From NCBI GenBank assembly GCA_900317375.1, contig ONGJ01000017.1, positions 1-58,205 on the forward strand: 58,205 nucleotides of DNA, read 5' to 3'. A program made the position numbers and the translations under genes. Below the pieces are notes generated by a model, which was given only the letters and a program-made list of their open reading frames with translations, did not search any database and was not told where the DNA came from. Shown here piece by piece: positions 19,264 through 31,300 of this stretch (positions are counted from its first letter, which is position 1; the number at the start of each line of letters is the position of its first letter). Origin of the DNA: an uncultured Eubacteriales bacterium. Its GTDB lineage: Bacteria; Bacillota; Clostridia; Oscillospirales; Oscillospiraceae.

Positions 19264-20457
19264 TTACTGCTGGGCTTTGACGGCGGCACGGTGGTCTGCC
19301 TGAATCTGTTTCAGGAGGGCCGGGTTCTCGATCAGCTCCAGGGCGGTCAGAGCCAGGGCCTTGGCGCCCACGGAGATCGAGCGTAGGCCGGTTTCGGAGC
19401 GGGCAGCCTCGCACTTTTCCAGCGTGTGCCCCGCAACGGGGACATCGCTGATGCGGATCATGGGCTGAATGACCGGGATCACCTGAGAGACATTGCCGAC
19501 ATCGGAGGAGCCGAGGGGATGGCCGCAATCCAGATCGAGGCTTTCGCCGAGAGACGCCAGACTGCGCTGATAGACCGCGTCAAAGGAGGGGGTCGGGATG
19601 ACATTGTCAACGAGGTTGCGCTGCATCGGTTCGAGAAGACCCGTGCAGCCGGTCTGAAGCGCGGCGCCCTCGACGATTTTCTCCATCTTACGGTAAACCT
19701 CGTCCCGACGTTTTACAGAGGCGGCGCGGACGAAAAATTTGGCCTCGGTGTATTCGGGGATGATGTTCGGCGCATCGCCGCCTTTGGTGATGATGCCGTG
19801 GATGCGGACATCCTGGGGAAGCTGCTGACGCAGCAGGCCGACGGCGTTGAAGACCAGGATCATCGCGTCAAGCGCATTGATGCCCTCAGTGGGTGCGGAG
19901 GCTGCATGGGCGGCACGGCCGCGAAATTCGATGCGGATCGGCGCGCAGGAGAGCTCGGCATGGGTCGGCTCATGGATGTCGGAGCCCGGGTGCACGCAGA
20001 GAGCGGCGTCCACATCCCGGAAGAAGCCCTCCCGGACAAAGCTGACCTTGGCGCTGCCGTTTTCGCCGCCTTCCTCGCCGGGGGTGCCGTAAACACGGAT
20101 CTCGCCGCCGGTCTCGTCGAGCACCTGCTTCAGGGCGGCGGCGGCGAGGCAGGAGGTCGCGCCGAAGAGGTTATGGCCGCAGGCGTGGCCGATCCCGGGC
20201 AGCGCGTCATATTCCGCCAGAAAGACCAGCGTCGGGCCCGGCTTTTCGGAGCGGTAGACGGCAGTGAAGCCGGTACGGTGACCGGCCACGTCCGTTTTGA
20301 CCTTGAAGCCCTCCCGGGCCAGCTGGCCGGAAAGCGTCTCACAGGCGAAGAACTCGTAGTTGCTGACCTCGGGCTTTGCGTGGATATCCAGGGCGATCTG
20401 GCGGTAGACAGCGTCCTGACGGTCGACATAGGCAAGAATGCGATCTCGGTATGACAT
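19264..20457 (-). CDS. M20 family amidohydrolase (N-acyl amino-acid deacylase type)
   Basis: 397 residues. The ATG at 20457 follows GGAGGGAACC. Metal and catalytic motifs of M20D hydrolases are present: FLAEYDALPGIGHACGHNLFGA (His/Asp ligands), TPGEEGGENGSAKV (Glu-Glu pair), the dimerisation-domain motif RIEFRGRAAHAASAPTEGIN, and the last His in PVAGHTLEKCEAA. Such enzymes remove N-acyl groups from amino acids, related to AbgB/YxeP types. It is the last gene of the metQ-metN-metI operon (19 bases after metI), which suggests that the imported compound is an N-acylated or otherwise conjugated sulfur amino acid that is cleaved inside. Confidence 0.85.
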   Translation of the reverse strand: MSYRDRILAYVDRQDAVYRQIALDIHAKPEVSNYEFFACETLSGQLAREGFKVKTDVAGHRTGFTAVYRSEKPGPTLVFLAEYDALPGIGHACGHNLFGATSCLAAAALKQVLDETGGEIRVYGTPGEEGGENGSAKVSFVREGFFRDVDAALCVHPGSDIHEPTHAELSCAPIRIEFRGRAAHAASAPTEGINALDAMILVFNAVGLLRQQLPQDVRIHGIITKGGDAPNIIPEYTEAKFFVRAASVKRRDEVYRKMEKIVEGAALQTGCTGLLEPMQRNLVDNVIPTPSFDAVYQRSLASLGESLDLDCGHPLGSSDVGNVSQVIPVIQPMIRISDVPVAGHTLEKCEAARSETGLRSISVGAKALALTALELIENPALLKQIQADHRAAVKAQQ

Positions 20458-20476
20458 GGTTCCCTCCGGAAAGCGG

Positions 20477-21187
20477 TTACTTGTTGTGGCGGATCTGGAA
20501 CAGGCTGCGGTTGGTGGTGCGCTTGGCAAGGCTGTTGCCGAGACTCTGGAGCACAAAGGTCACCACCAGCAGCACGATGACGCAGACGTTGACGATATCC
20601 TGGTGATTCTGGTTCTGCCCGTAATTGATGGCGAACGAGCCGATCCCGCCTGCGCCGACGGCGCCCGCCATGGTGGTCAGGCCAATCAGGCTGATGGCCG
20701 TGACCGTGGTCACGCGGATCAGATCCGGCAGCGCCTCATGCAGATACACGCGGAAGATCAGCCCGCAGGTCCCGCTGCCCATGCTGCGTGCGGCCTCGAT
20801 TTTTCCCTCTTCGACGCCGGAGAGGGCAACCTCGACCTGGCGGGAATAGAAGGGCACGGTACCGAAGACCAGGGGCAGAATGGCGCCCTTGACGCCGATG
20901 GCCGTGCCGACCATCGCCCGGGTCAGAGGAATCAGGAAGATCAGCAGAATGATGAACGGGATCGAGCGGAAAATGTTGATGACCAGGTTCGTCAGCTGGT
21001 AGACGACGGGGTTCTGGCGGATCCCGCCCTTTTTGGTGACGACCAGCAGAATGCCGAAGAAAAGGCCGATGACAAAGGCAATCAGCCCGGCCTTCCAGAA
21101 CATCTCGACCGTGGCGGAGCAGGCGGTAAAGAACTTGGACCGATAGGTATAGAGATTGGGGGCGATTTCCTTAATCCAGGCTTCCAT
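20477..21187 (-). CDS. metI: Methionine-type ABC transporter permease
   Basis: 236 residues, start ATG preceded by GGAGGTG 7 bases away and overlapping the end of metN by 17 bases. Five predicted helices and the family's EAA-type cytoplasmic loop (EVALSGVEEGKIEAARSMGS) are visible. The MetI signatures SIPFIILLIFLIPLTRAMVG and LIGLTTMAGAVGAGGIGSFA are well conserved. MetI dimers form the pore for D/L-methionine uptake. The gene looks intact, in contrast to its ATPase partner. Confidence 0.92.
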   Translation of the reverse strand: MEAWIKEIAPNLYTYRSKFFTACSATVEMFWKAGLIAFVIGLFFGILLVVTKKGGIRQNPVVYQLTNLVINIFRSIPFIILLIFLIPLTRAMVGTAIGVKGAILPLVFGTVPFYSRQVEVALSGVEEGKIEAARSMGSGTCGLIFRVYLHEALPDLIRVTTVTAISLIGLTTMAGAVGAGGIGSFAINYGQNQNHQDIVNVCVIVLLVVTFVLQSLGNSLAKRTTNRSLFQIRHNK

Positions 21188-22202
21188 CTTTCAGCACCTC
21201 CACGCGTACATGACTGTCTTTCAGAAAACGGATCGCGGCATCCAGATCCTCCGGTCTGCCGCTGAGGACACCGATGGTACCTCCGAAGGGGTTGCCGTGA
21301 AGGTACTCCACGTTCGCCAGAATGATATTCAGCGTGACGCCGAAGCGCTGGGCAGCGACGGTCAGAACCGGCTCGCCGACGCTTTCCTTCTGAAAGATGA
21401 GCTTGACCAGCTTTTCCCCTGGCTTCAGCTGGGTGAAGCCGGAATCCTCGGCGATCATCCGCTCAATCTTGCCGAGAGGCGAGGACGAGTTGATAAACTT
21501 CTTCGTGATCTCGGCCTTCGGATCCGAGAAGACGTCATAGACGCTGCCCTCTTCGGCAATGCGGCCGTTTTCCATCACGGCCACGCGGTCGGCGATGGTT
21601 TTGATGACGGCCATCTCGTGGGTGATGATGACGATGGTGATGCCGAGCTTGCGGTTCAGATCCTTCAGGAGGTTGAGAATCGACTCGGTCGCGTCCGGGT
21701 CCAGGGCGCTGGTGGCCTCGTCGGAGAGCAGGATCTTCGGGTTCGCTGCCAGGGCGCGTGCAATGGCCACGCGCTGCTTCTGCCCGCCGGAGAGCTGGGA
21801 GGGAAAGACGTCGATCTTATCCTGCAGATCGACCAGCTCCAGCAGCTCGAGCACGCGGGCACGGATTTCTTCGCGGCTTCTGCCGGTGTACTTGAGGGGG
21901 TAGGCGATGTTGTCAAACACCGTGGAACGCTCGAGAAGATTGAAATGCTGGAAAATCATACCGATCCCGCGGCGCATTTCATTCTGGAGGCGGGTGTCCA
22001 TGCGTCTGCCCTGATAATACGGCTGGCCGGCGCGGATCTCGATGTCCCGGTATTCACCCATGGTAATGGTGCCCTCGTCGGGGGAATAGCCGATGACGCC
22101 ATATACGCTGCCATCTTCAATGGAGAGGGAGACGCCGTCCAGTGCCGTGACGTCTCCGCTCTTCAGATGGTAGGTTTTTTTCAGATTACGGACTTCAATC
22201 AC
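21171..22202 (-). CDS. metN: Methionine-type ABC ATPase lacking the Walker A loop
   Basis: 343 residues, GTG start, 8 bases after metQ with no clear ribosome site of its own, so probably coupled. Present: Q-loop GMIFQHFNLLERSTVFDNIA, signature PSQLSGGQKQRVAIARALAA, Walker B ILLSDEATSALDPD, switch His ITHEMAVI, and a C-terminal NIL methionine-sensing domain (from about residue 255). Absent: the P-loop. The sequence runs YGVIGYS directly into PDEGTITMG (residues 34-49), where relatives have GYSGAGKST plus about ten residues before the P-EGTI strand. The gap is about 16 codons, in frame, at about 22082. Without it nucleotide binding should fail. It is a real in-frame deletion or an assembly error. 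Confidence 0.88.
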   Translation of the reverse strand: MIEVRNLKKTYHLKSGDVTALDGVSLSIEDGSVYGVIGYSPDEGTITMGEYRDIEIRAGQPYYQGRRMDTRLQNEMRRGIGMIFQHFNLLERSTVFDNIAYPLKYTGRSREEIRARVLELLELVDLQDKIDVFPSQLSGGQKQRVAIARALAANPKILLSDEATSALDPDATESILNLLKDLNRKLGITIVIITHEMAVIKTIADRVAVMENGRIAEEGSVYDVFSDPKAEITKKFINSSSPLGKIERMIAEDSGFTQLKPGEKLVKLIFQKESVGEPVLTVAAQRFGVTLNIILANVEYLHGNPFGGTIGVLSGRPEDLDAAIRFLKDSHVRVEVLKDGSLD

Positions 22203-22210
22203 GGCGACTG

Positions 22211-23119
22211 TTATCCGAGCTTGCCGGCGGCGGCCTTCAGCGCATCCAGAGAATCGAACTTCTCGGAATACAGCGTCAGGGGAGCGATCAGGGTATCGCC
22301 GATGGCGACAACATCGTAGCCGTTTGCCTCGGCGTCGTTCTTCAAATAGGCCTTGTGCTGGAAGGCGTTCAGATCGATCTCGCCGGCGTTCAGCGCTTCG
22401 TTGGGCAGGTTGTAGGCGTCGAATTCGACGAGCTCGATATAGATGCCCGCATCCTGTTCATCCAGGACCTTCTGCACGGCCTGCCACTGGTCGTTGTTGG
22501 CGCCGCAGACGCCGACCTTGACAACGGTCTTGCCCTTCTTGGGGGAGGAATACTCCACGATCTCCTGGGCCTCTTCCTTGGTCAGGGTGATTTCGTCCTT
22601 ATAGTCGAAGGCAGGGAAGAAGGCCTCTTCGTAGTTGACCAGCAGGAACTCGGCAACGGCCTGGGTCTGGTAAGCCTTGACGATGGTCTGGTAGACCTCG
22701 TTCTCGGCGTCCTCGGCACGGGCGGCAATGATGTTTACGTAGGGGTTGTCGCCGTCCTCGCTCTGCTTTTCAATGATCAGGCCGTCGCGGGAGGGGATCA
22801 GCCCGAAGGGGATGGCATAGGTGCCGTTGATGGTGGAGGCGCCGAAGTCGGCGAGGGTGGAAGGCAGGGTGTTGGCTTGGACCGGGGTAACCTCGACATC
22901 ATAGAGGTAGCCGGTGATATCGGCGATCTCGGGCGTATAGCCGGCCTCCGGGTCGACCGTGATAAGACCGGCGGTCTCCAGCAGCTTGATGCCGCGGGAC
23001 AGGTTCGTGCCGTCATCGGGGATGCCGATGGGGAGAGAGTCGGCAAAGGCCGTCAGGTTCAGGGAAAGGACCAGGGCTGCCGCCAGGGCAAAGGCAAATA
23101 CGGTTTTCAGGGTTTTCAT
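22211..23119 (-). CDS. metQ: MetQ/NlpA-like substrate-binding protein with circularly permuted lobes
   Basis: 302 residues. The ATG at 23119 follows AAGGAG by 7 bases. The signal peptide ends at LTAFA-DS; there is no lipobox Cys, unusual for MetQ. Residues 27-172 match the second half of NlpA proteins (IGIPDDGTNLSRGIKLLETA, STINGTYAIPFGLIPSRDG, PYVNIIAARA, ending FFPAF, the normal C-terminus). Residues 197-302 match the first half (TVVKVGVCGANNDQWQAVQ, VEFDAYNLPNEALNAGEIDL, NAFQHKAYL, PLTLYSEKFDSLDALKAA). Joining the present C-terminus (AAAGKLG) to the mature N-terminus (DSLPIGIP) restores the usual order without a gap. First structural gene of the operon. Confidence 0.85.
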   Translation of the reverse strand: MKTLKTVFAFALAAALVLSLNLTAFADSLPIGIPDDGTNLSRGIKLLETAGLITVDPEAGYTPEIADITGYLYDVEVTPVQANTLPSTLADFGASTINGTYAIPFGLIPSRDGLIIEKQSEDGDNPYVNIIAARAEDAENEVYQTIVKAYQTQAVAEFLLVNYEEAFFPAFDYKDEITLTKEEAQEIVEYSSPKKGKTVVKVGVCGANNDQWQAVQKVLDEQDAGIYIELVEFDAYNLPNEALNAGEIDLNAFQHKAYLKNDAEANGYDVVAIGDTLIAPLTLYSEKFDSLDALKAAAGKLG

Positions 23120-23210: not shown

Positions 23211-23273
23211 TCACATTCGGTCCGTGCTCCCGCCGCACCGTCGGCGGGGGTATCGGTCAGGGCGTTTCAGCAT
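23211..23273 (-). CDS. Possible 20-codon ORF between attenuator and metQ
   Basis: ATG at 23273 follows AGAGGTGATACC, a strong ribosome site. It encodes a basic peptide, MLKRPDRYPRRRCGGSTDRM. The ORF begins 19 bases past the terminator U tract and contains a CCCGCCG/CGGCGGG hairpin. It ends 92 bases before metQ. It could be a second leader or a spacer; there is no homology to support a product. Confidence 0.4.
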   Translation of the reverse strand: MLKRPDRYPRRRCGGSTDRM

Positions 23274-23291: not shown

Positions 23292-23328
23292 AAAAAAGAA
23301 AACCGGGAAGCCTGCTGCGGCTTCCCGG
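23292..23328 (-). terminator. Intrinsic terminator (attenuator) in the metQNI leader
   Basis: Read on the minus strand: CCGGGAAGCC, six-base loop, GGCTTCCCGG, then TTTTCTTTTTT. A perfect 10-bp GC-rich stem with a U tract sits between the Met/Cys-rich leader ORF and the operon, so read-through must be regulated for metQNI to be expressed from the upstream promoter. Confidence 0.85.
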
Positions 23329-23359
23329 TCTGGAATGAACAAAAACTGATCAGACTGGA

Positions 23360-23458
23360 TCATGAAGCGGACAGGCAGTTCAGATGAGCATAGCGACGCA
23401 TGCACATGCGGCACATGTGCATCTCGGTCATCATCATGCTGGCAAACGTCCGAATCAT
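23360..23458 (-). CDS. Methionine/cysteine-rich leader peptide of the metQNI operon
   Basis: 32 codons. The ATG at 23458 lies about 30 bases after the predicted transcription start; AAAGGA lies 11 bases upstream. The peptide reads MIRTFASMMMTEMHMCRMCM followed by RRYAHLNCLSAS: 8 Met and 3 Cys, including MMM and M-x-M-C-x-M-C-M. The stop codon is 31 bases before the terminator stem. This is the layout of ribosome-mediated attenuation as in trp/his leaders, with the operon's own substrate amino acid as the codon run. Slow decoding at Met codons when charged tRNA-Met is low would favour read-through. Mechanism is inferred; ORF, promoter and terminator are seen directly. Confidence 0.75.
   Translation of the reverse strand: MIRTFASMMMTEMHMCRMCMRRYAHLNCLSAS
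23400..23422 (-). promoter_or_regulatory. Perfect RNA hairpin formed by the Met codons of the leader ORF
   Basis: ATGCACATG (minus, 23422-23414) pairs with CATGTGCAT (23408-23400) around a 5-base loop. The stem contains Met codons 13, 15, 18 and 20 of the leader peptide, so a ribosome stalled there would melt it. Short complementarities link the downstream leader to the terminator arms (AGUCUG with CAGACC, GCCUGU with GCAGGC), but no strong antiterminator stands out by eye. Confidence 0.55.
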
Positions 23459-23496
23459 GAAACCAGAATTCCTTTCAGAAGTTTTATGATGCCATG

Positions 23497-23525
23497 AGTA
23501 TAAACGTCTGCCGTGACTTTGTCAA
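23497..23525 (-). promoter_or_regulatory. Consensus promoter of the metQNI leader
   Basis: Minus-strand TTGACA (23525-23520), 17-base spacer, TATACT (23502-23497). Predicted start near 23490, about 30 bases before the leader ATG. Confidence 0.85.
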
Positions 23526-30313: not shown

Positions 30314-30538
30314 ATCAATGAAGATGGACATGCATTGCGAATCGCTGTCCATACGTTAATCGAACGAAAAGTACAGCTCTGGCCTGCGCAGCGAGGTATA
30401 TGGTTTGATCTCTCTAAGGTAAGCGAACGAAAAAGTACGCCTGGACGCTTGCCCGGGCGTGCTTGTTGAGATGAAAAAGACAATGCAGAAATAGAATCAG
30501 CCTTAGATAATGACGGGTTCCGCTTCACTCAAAGAAGT
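30314..30538 (+). other. No intact gene; possible decayed reading frame
   Basis: One plus frame reads NEDGHALRIAVHTLIERKVQ onward to a TGA near 30471, and another resumes as DEKDNAEIESALDNDGFRFT. This may be a frameshifted remnant. A direct repeat of CGAACGAAAA-AGTAC (two copies about 65 bases apart) lies within it. I recognise no family. Confidence 0.25.
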
Positions 30539-31300
30539 TCAGGCCTTAAGTATGATATCAGTTCCATCCTGCGTTATTTCCAGCTCAAGATCTGCTTTCT
30601 TGCTGTTTTCCAGACACAGTCTCACGTTGGCCATGTCGCTGAAATCAACGAATTTCTCGGCGTCTTCCTGATTGACCCCTGTTGCGACCCTTCTCGCAAT
30701 CAGCCGTTTCCGGAGCAATTCTTCATTTGCTGAAAGAGATATGGTGAAATCCGCATAATCTGACAGATCCCTCCAGCCGTCAATATCCAGAAGAAGATAG
30801 TTGCCTTCCAGAAGCACAATGTCAGAATCGACTGTTATCGCGTCTTCCACCGGATTGTGAAGAAGCCGGTCATAGATTGGCCACCTGCAGGGATGCCCTT
30901 CCATCAATTCTGAAATCTTCTCCCGAAGTCTTTCCAGATCAAATGTGACGGGTGCCCCTTTGATGTTTACCATGGGAATCTCTTTCCCAGCTACAATGGC
31001 CGTATGCGTCAGCAGATATTCCTGTTTCCGATGAAAACCGTCCATTCCAATGGCTTGAAATGCCTTCTCTGGAACAGCGTCCTTCGCCAAATATTCCAGA
31101 AAACTGACGAGAGTGCTTTTTCCGGCACCGGGAGGTGCGGCAAGCATTACGAGTATTCGCGCCTGCTTTTCCGAGCACATAGAAGACAAATGCTTCAACA
31201 AAGGAATAAAAATCTCCTTGATGCTTTCCTTGCTGAAAGATGCATTAACAACGATTCCGTTAATAGTAGATGAGAAGTCTAAAAAAGAAAGCTTGTCCAT
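30539..31300 (-). CDS. P-loop kinase of the uridine kinase / phosphoribulokinase-like group
   Basis: 253 residues. Walker A is LVMLAAPPGAGKSTLVSFLE (near residue 55), followed by QAIGMDGFHRKQEYLL, a typical small-molecule-binding D-G-F-H motif of YggC/FrcK and pantothenate-kinase-like enzymes. Later motifs are APVTFDLERLREKI, WPIYDRLLHNPVEDAI, and VLLEGNYLLLDIDGWRDL (Walker B region). The end (LISRRVATG-type RLIARRVATGVNQEDAEKFV) is the lid helix. It likely phosphorylates a sugar or nucleoside; the substrate is not predictable. Upstream there is a gene remnant on the same strand rather than a complete partner. AT-richer than the core. Confidence 0.8.
   Translation of the reverse strand: MDKLSFLDFSSTINGIVVNASFSKESIKEIFIPLLKHLSSMCSEKQARILVMLAAPPGAGKSTLVSFLEYLAKDAVPEKAFQAIGMDGFHRKQEYLLTHTAIVAGKEIPMVNIKGAPVTFDLERLREKISELMEGHPCRWPIYDRLLHNPVEDAITVDSDIVLLEGNYLLLDIDGWRDLSDYADFTISLSANEELLRKRLIARRVATGVNQEDAEKFVDFSDMANVRLCLENSKKADLELEITQDGTDIILKA

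Follow-up and report, generated by a model that had tools for sequence, protein, structure and literature searches.

The DNA ahead of the methionine transporter genes metQ, metN and metI is very probably a ribosome-mediated transcription attenuator of the trp/his type, with methionine as its signal. It lies on the minus strand of the window, the whole stretch of 58,205 nt analysed here, which comes from a draft genome of 3.08 Mb. The original prediction, attenuation with the operon's own substrate as the sensor codon, is supported by conserved Met codons, terminator and promoter, by a covarying antiterminator and by the spacing of these elements. The parts of the proposed device, their conservation, the covariation and the spacing are legible in the sequences themselves. 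The features of the window are:

23520-23525, minus strand: -35 box TTGACA, read from the sequence
23497-23502, minus strand: -10 box TATACT, with a 17-nt spacer to the -35 box
23360-23458, minus strand: leader ORF (uORF1) of 32 codons with 8 Met and 3 Cys, with homologues in relatives
23400-23422, minus strand: Met-codon hairpin, perfect 9 bp, ATGCACATG/CATGTGCAT
23364-23376, minus strand: region 2, candidate antiterminator 5' arm GCCTGTCCGCTTC, formed by the last leader codons
23310-23324, minus strand: region 3, GAAGCCGCAGCAGGC, comprising the terminator 5' arm, the loop and the start of the 3' arm; predicted partner of region 2
23301-23330, minus strand: predicted intrinsic terminator hairpin, -24.3 kcal/mol
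23292-23302, minus strand: U-rich tract TTTTCTTTTTT, read from the sequence
23211-23273, minus strand: uORF2, a second short ORF encoding MLKRPDRYPRRRCGGSTDRM up to its stop, ending CGA-ATG-TGA and preceded by the SD-like AAAGAGGTGAT
22211-23119, minus strand: metQ, circularly permuted methionine-binding protein (Pfam/NCBIfam and structure match)
21171-22202, minus strand: metN, ATP-binding protein with NIL domain (Pfam/NCBIfam)
20477-21187, minus strand: metI, permease (Pfam/NCBIfam)

A re-check of the sequence between 23525 and 23497 bore out the proposed minus-strand promoter, and the ORF at 23458-23360 has the composition originally ascribed to it, including a run of three Met at codons 8-10. 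Its product is MIRTFASMMMTEMHMCRMCMRRYAHLNCLSAS; a Shine-Dalgarno-like GAAAGGAA precedes it, and its stop codon occupies 23362-23360. The perfect 9-bp hairpin made by the Met codons was likewise recovered as described. The terminator reads CCGGGAAGCC-GCAGCA-GGCTTCCCGG and is followed by the 11-base U-rich tract; its computed fold comprises 12 bp, compared with the 10 bp counted originally. Protein domains and families place the three transporter genes downstream, as had been claimed: Pfam assigns the metQ product to the NlpA lipoproteins, that of metN to ABC plus NIL and that of metI to BPD_transp_1, and the top NCBIfam matches are MetQ, MetN and MetI, all under the curated cut-offs. The metQ start was corrected and likely lies at 23119, after AAGGAG. 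Behind metI, positions 19264-20556 of the minus strand hold a gene that we take, by eye from its sequence, to encode an M20-type amidohydrolase; it may belong to the operon, and a similar gene follows metQ in locus L109.

For comparison we used 90 distinct Met-dense short ORFs, picked for a metN, metQ or metY motif at most 1.7 kb downstream (downstream labels: metN 58, metQ 31, metY 1); because this motif was required, the association with met genes is built into the set. An intrinsic terminator follows in all 90 leaders, 9-45 nt past the stop codon and each at -12.5 kcal/mol or better. Among shuffled controls any hairpin at all occurred in 21 of 90, and -12 kcal/mol was reached in none. The terminator stem covaries, with two-sided changes in 10 of its 12 pairs; a terminator conserved in relatives and compensated in its stem, which the original prediction had named as supporting signs, was thus found. 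A promoter of the form TTGACA-N16..18-TATAAT (at most 2 of 12 mismatches) precedes 86 of the 86 leaders with at least 90 nt of upstream sequence (shuffled: 1 of 86). SD-like sequences stand before 82 of the 90, a count to be read in the light of start codons having been picked with the SD in mind.

The aligned leader cores keep their reading frame, all gaps being multiples of three, and share the peptide pattern MMM..M.MC.MCM. It is mainly the Met positions, together with the Cys positions, that are conserved, while the residues between them vary (H/R/Y/C; C/F/M/G/W) and codons have been gained or lost in frame among relatives. Conservation of the leader as a peptide motif would also suit a nascent-peptide arrest of the TnaC or SpeFL kind, in which a Met-rich peptide together with a tunnel ligand (methionine or SAM), and not a shortage of Met-tRNA, stalls the ribosome. 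We regard such an arrest as improbable: the variable residues and the in-frame codon changes speak against it, no conserved non-control residues of the exit-tunnel-contact kind are seen in leader 1, where positions other than Met and Cys mostly vary, and stalling at high methionine would, given the anatomy of the leader, be expected to raise uptake, not to lower it.

The leaders contain a median of 10 Met (n = 90). Their cores also average 2.0 Cys, with at least one in 89 of the 90, and one might ask if cysteine, or cysteine and methionine jointly, is sensed in a more general response to sulfur supply. This is unlikely, although somewhat less so than peptide arrest, since the cores hold 8.2 Met on average and never fewer than 6, the downstream targets are methionine uptake and metY, and 178 of the 179 core Cys codons are TGC (the other is TGT), a uniformity explicable by the hairpin. 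Moreover, the Cys of MCM is replaced by Arg (CGC or CGT) in 6 of 70 aligned rows, the first base being T in the remaining 64; these rows come from two alignments, A2 with 40 of 49 metN representatives and A3 with 30 of 31 others. An unaligned scan of the same codon (n = 87) gave TGC in 72, CGC in 5, CGT in 3 and others in 7. As the Cys codons are conserved too, cysteine could contribute as a co-signal to what we read as a methionine attenuator.

Cells of the Met-codon hairpin are paired to 97.8% and 98.9% in two alignments of relatives, although the Met codons fix most of the columns. The original prediction had looked to compensatory changes in both stems: the terminator stem shows them, whereas covariation in the Met-codon hairpin is weak, being matched by 13 of 500 shuffles in one alignment and by 408 of 500 in the other. 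In 79 of the 87 leaders whose 5' arm has one codon between two Met codons, that codon is Y-R-C (Cys, Tyr, Arg or His), a preference that, as a sequence pattern, fits selection for hairpin pairing. This element may be a pause hairpin.

A structured leader with a terminator ahead of a met operon also brings to mind a novel riboswitch or T-box that drives the terminator, the leader ORF being incidental. We consider this highly improbable. The leader keeps its reading frame, and the consensus fold of the leaders contains the Met hairpin and the terminator and no other element. No Rfam family matches the leader: a covariance-model search of the window and 17 relatives returned no SAM riboswitch and no T-box in the leader, only tRNAs, and at E-values up to 5 just two unrelated weak matches appeared, in agreement with the original remark that SAM-I and T-box signatures are absent here. 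The SAM-I riboswitch itself occurs in the genus at about one copy per genome (92 of 102 genomes). In five of the five loci opened, the window's own genome included, it precedes metK, as named from sequence (L258, at 30480-30574 of G000:C55, and L259-L262). With SAM-I before metK and the Met leader before the uptake genes, the genus seems to use separate devices for sensing SAM and methionyl-tRNA.

The original prediction found no strong antiterminator. This was overturned: in the window, region 2 can form 12 pairs with region 3 (-16.9 kcal/mol), joining the last leader codons to the 5' arm and loop of the terminator. We compared, in 5000 permutations, the pairing of each leader's region 2 with its own terminator and with those of other leaders, omitting leaders for which fewer than 30 nt were available as control. 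Own pairing was better on average, with z-scores of -10.9 (84 leaders), -9.8 (59), -8.8 (50) and -7.3 (35) at similarity limits of 95, 80, 70 and 60%, respectively, and none of the 5000 permutations was as good at any of these limits. A control stretch from the 5' side gave z-scores of +1.4 to +2.5. All 48 settings of a parameter grid were negative as well (z -2.2 to -9.7, 51 leaders). Narrower versions were weaker: measured against dinucleotide-shuffled copies of region 2, pairing with the 5' arm and loop had a mean z of -0.75, and cross-pairing with the 5' arm and loop without the 3' arm gave -3.2, -2.2 and -1.55. As the visible pairing extends through the loop, the target was enlarged after these weak tests to take in 4 nt of the 3' arm, and the strong cross-pairing z-scores depend on this post-test choice.

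The start of region 2 lies a median of 16 nt (interquartile range 14-18) past the last Met codon of the core, and a median of 6 nt separates the end of the region from that of the stop codon (n = 90 for both); in the window it begins 22 nt past the last core Met codon. In 80 of the 90 leaders, the footprint assumed for a ribosome at the stop codon reaches into region 2. As measured on these sequences, the spacing is what ribosome-mediated attenuation requires.

We then modelled folding of the RNA transcribed to just beyond the terminator loop, with a ribosome stalled, at the stop codon or absent. An alternative fold of the kind sought by the original prediction was found: for the window, the predicted probability of the antiterminator is 0.95 with a stalled ribosome, 0.00 with one at the stop codon and 0.19 for untranslated RNA. 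Across the 90 leaders it averages 0.91 in the stalled state (84 of 90 above 0.5) and 0.22 with the ribosome at the stop codon, where 14 of 90 still favour the antiterminator and where the low value is partly built in, as the model masks that stretch. Without a ribosome the mean is 0.79 (75 of 90 above 0.5); that untranslated RNA would be terminated is accordingly a prediction for the window and not a general one. At equilibrium, the full-length fold of the window favours the terminator even with a stalled ribosome; the decision would consequently have to be co-transcriptional, as in trp.

From this anatomy we infer a transcript start, translation of the leader, stalling and read-through, with methionine as the physiological signal. 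RNA polymerase would initiate near 23490 and a ribosome would translate the Met-rich leader. With ample Met-tRNA, the ribosome would reach the stop codon and cover region 2 (23376-23364), leaving region 3 to form the terminator (23330-23301), and transcription would end before metQ. When Met-tRNA is scarce, it would stall at the Met codons (codons 8-20); region 2 would stay free and pair with the 5' arm and loop of the terminator, allowing read-through into metQ-metN-metI and thereby more methionine uptake.

The occurrence of the window's leader in relatives is beyond chance. A 39-nt leader pattern with at most three mismatches matched 49 of the 102 genus genomes, whereas the reversed pattern, run as control, matched none. 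A profile built from 32 leaders (A1) detected the leader in 65 of the 102 and in 26 of the 34 high-quality ones; the 37 genomes of the genus without a match include incomplete ones. Beyond the genus, an order-wide profile search found the leader in 4 of 394 genomes, a class-wide search with a wider profile in 4 of 391 (the match in G703 was judged chance), and a phylum-wide search in 1 of 398; the window's own genome is included in the first two counts and is the only one in the third. A protein search with the window's leader alone gave matches in 21 of 149 genomes, mostly chance, and only L004, L006 and the window itself were clear leaders among the translated matches.

Scanning GTDB contigs for ATGNNCATGNNCNNCATGTGCATG yielded at least 120 stretches. 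Among the 120 listed, a met gene lies at most 1.7 kb downstream of 40 of the 45 short Met-rich frames, compared with only 3 of the 75 other frames; of these three, L151 and L185 are 6-Met leaders and L148 carries a false label. The Met codons are kept in relatives next to met genes, as the original prediction would have it. Five Met-rich frames are without a met gene (L142, L154, L231, L234 and L253); L142 and L154 look like chance matches, L231 and L234 like true leaders, and L253 is ambiguous. Small proteins rich in Met and Cys can bind copper or zinc, and the ORF might in principle encode such a trans-acting protein, its position being incidental. We find this scarcely credible given the company of met genes just described; in addition, the 3' codons of the ORF can pair with the terminator and show covariation with it, and the leader ORF has no Pfam or NCBIfam family above cut-off.

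Carriers of the attenuator-type leader among the GTDB matches listed include Oscillibacter sp. ER4, a Faecousia sp., a Christensenella sp. MAG and Candidatus Apopatosoma intestinale. Three further leaders, from three other families, precede metY (O-acetylhomoserine sulfhydrylase, named from sequence). The Streptomyces matches L171 and L175 are not upstream of met genes.

The classical amino-acid leader-peptide attenuators are trpL, hisL, thrL and ilvL of Proteobacteria. Like these, the leader described here combines runs of cognate codons in a short ORF, an antiterminator from the RNA of the leader's end, an intrinsic terminator and an operon for the same amino acid; unlike them, it would respond to methionine, and its hosts are Clostridia. 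A further peculiarity is that the Met control codon doubles as the initiation codon, so that starvation would also affect initiation. Accounts of methionine regulation in Firmicutes usually centre on SAM riboswitches, T-boxes and repressors. The S-box (SAM-I, RF00162) and the methionine T-boxes control methionine genes by premature termination; unlike the window's leader, they use an RNA aptamer or tRNA binding and have no leader ORF. A large group of gut Clostridia appears to divide the work, with the SAM level acting on metK and methionyl-tRNA acting on methionine uptake through a trp-like attenuator. Methionine would thereby join the amino acids whose leader-peptide attenuators have comparative support, and the leader would offer a ready sensor for methionine limitation.

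Among open-licence full texts, a body of literature that largely leaves out subscription papers, one precedent for a Met leader peptide was found, metL of Streptomyces lividans TK24. According to the available parts of that report (PMC8079986), metL is a predicted Met leader (MSTTSDRTPATEATTTPGARCMCRRMCAF) directly before metNIQ, a leaderless ORF with 3 Met including the start and no Met run, for which the authors report no typical Rho-independent terminator. As far as these parts of the report go, the two share a Met-containing leader directly before met transporter genes, and differ in that the leader here is SD-led and comes, across many genomes, with a terminator and an antiterminator that covaries. 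His leader peptides before hisS paralogs in bacilli are called, in the accessible sections of the source, the first beyond Proteobacteria and Actinobacteria apart from ermC (PMC2965389). Going by those sections, they too are 'regular' amino-acid leader peptides in Firmicutes in place of a T-box, with a different amino acid, different genes and a different lineage. A survey of Actinobacteria gives, in the portion available, no conserved RNA structure for methionine operons (PMC1262725).

Between the terminator and metQ, the window's uORF2 probably adds a second methionine-linked step. An SD-led ORF with an in-frame CGA-ATG within 150 nt of the terminator is present in 25 of 35 loci in which metQ or metY comes first; L115 and L263 also carry one and fall outside this count owing to the filter. 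Among loci beginning with metN there was none (0 of 57), nor was a uORF2 found at the Oscillibacter sp. ER4 locus (L139). When any Arg codon was allowed, 24 of 33 loci yielded 29 distinct Arg-ATG sites in ORFs of this type, and every one of these sites uses CGA; by comparison, CGA makes up 156 of 3569 Arg codons in the met genes of a partly overlapping set of loci. After the terminator no hexamer is commoner than CGAATG, which occurs in 25 of 33 loci (shuffles: mean 0.68, maximum 3), and the codon pair occurs twice, in frame, in five loci (L031, L032, L049, L051 and L206). CGA-AUG ORFs like that of the window, often ending in Arg-Met-stop, are carried by metQ loci within L027-L240 and also by L281-L298.

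Across the order, the pattern AGGAGN{4,10}ATGN{15,45}CGAATGTGA, in which CGA and the stop are fixed, gave 18 matches in 16 of 152 genomes searched (reversed control: 2). Thirteen of the 18 are in-frame ORFs ending RM-stop, all directly before metY (12) or metG (1), as named from sequence; they stem from six families, some being close relatives, and 2 of the 13 have a Met-rich ORF within 330 nt upstream. Within the genus the pattern had 15 matches, none of them an in-frame ORF ending RM-stop; the window's uORF2 has a different SD and misses the pattern. CGAATGTGA alone occurs twice in the window, compared with 0.6 expected. Upstream of uORF2 and before metY, L285 and L289 have Met/Arg-rich leader ORFs (MKMRLMRMC.., MRMRIRMC..) with terminator-like hairpins, which are perhaps divergent forms of the poly-Met leader.

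Leader peptides of the TnaC and ermC types are short ORFs whose last codons before the stop are fixed. The uORF2 elements resemble them in their fixed last codons and in that the RNA following the ORF can pair with the metY ribosome-binding site, and differ in having peptides that vary apart from Arg(CGA)-Met; an NCBIfam search with the uORF2 peptides gave no family. Structure between uORF2 and the gene was not in excess (mean z -0.09, 32 loci), three metY loci being exceptions with z-scores of -2.4 to -3.8. In a post hoc test prompted by these three loci, the RNA after CGA-AUG paired with the ribosome-binding region of metY or metG (z -3.9, 12 loci, 3 of 5000), with no such signal at metQ loci (z -0.9, 25 loci, 906 of 5000). 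The complementarity to the metY ribosome-binding region, seen right after CGA-AUG for instance in L283, L292 and L298, is arranged as in translational attenuators. A Rho site after uORF2 was considered and dropped, C exceeding G in 16 of 25 with no clear Rho signature.

We tentatively suggest, at somewhat short of even chances, a two-stage methionine switch in which the poly-Met attenuator is followed by a regulatory ORF with the in-frame Arg(CGA)-Met dicodon, often with a stop codon right behind it, as its only fixed feature. A slow CGA in the P site may make the following AUG hypersensitive to low Met-tRNA and thus turn the two codons into a codon-pair sensor; at metY loci, a ribosome held at CGA-AUG could free the metY ribosome-binding site from pairing. 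If true, the CGA-AUG mini-ORFs before metQ, metY and metG would be a codon-pair regulatory element. No description of CGA-AUG leader ORFs was found in open-licence full texts, where subscription papers are for the most part not represented. An inverted repeat resembling ACCAACCTA..TAGGTAGG lies right after the metY -10 box in L115, L263, L264, L287, L288, L290 and L298; we presume a likeness to an operator of the Rrf2/CymR type.

From the order of its structural matches, the window's MetQ is circularly permuted: residues 206-301 match residues 7-102 of PDB 3k2d, and residues 29-162 match 99-228. For another family, circular permutation is on record in the available part of a report on Tp0684 (PMC4990184). 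Of 40 distinct MetQ-like ORFs in the loci retrieved, 36 have the motif normally found in the middle of the protein near the N-terminus instead; L185 and L253, both among these 36, are doubtful. In L109 (contig C4 of G150) there are tandem met transporter operons, each with its own Met leader, and one of the two MetQ proteins is permuted, the other canonical.
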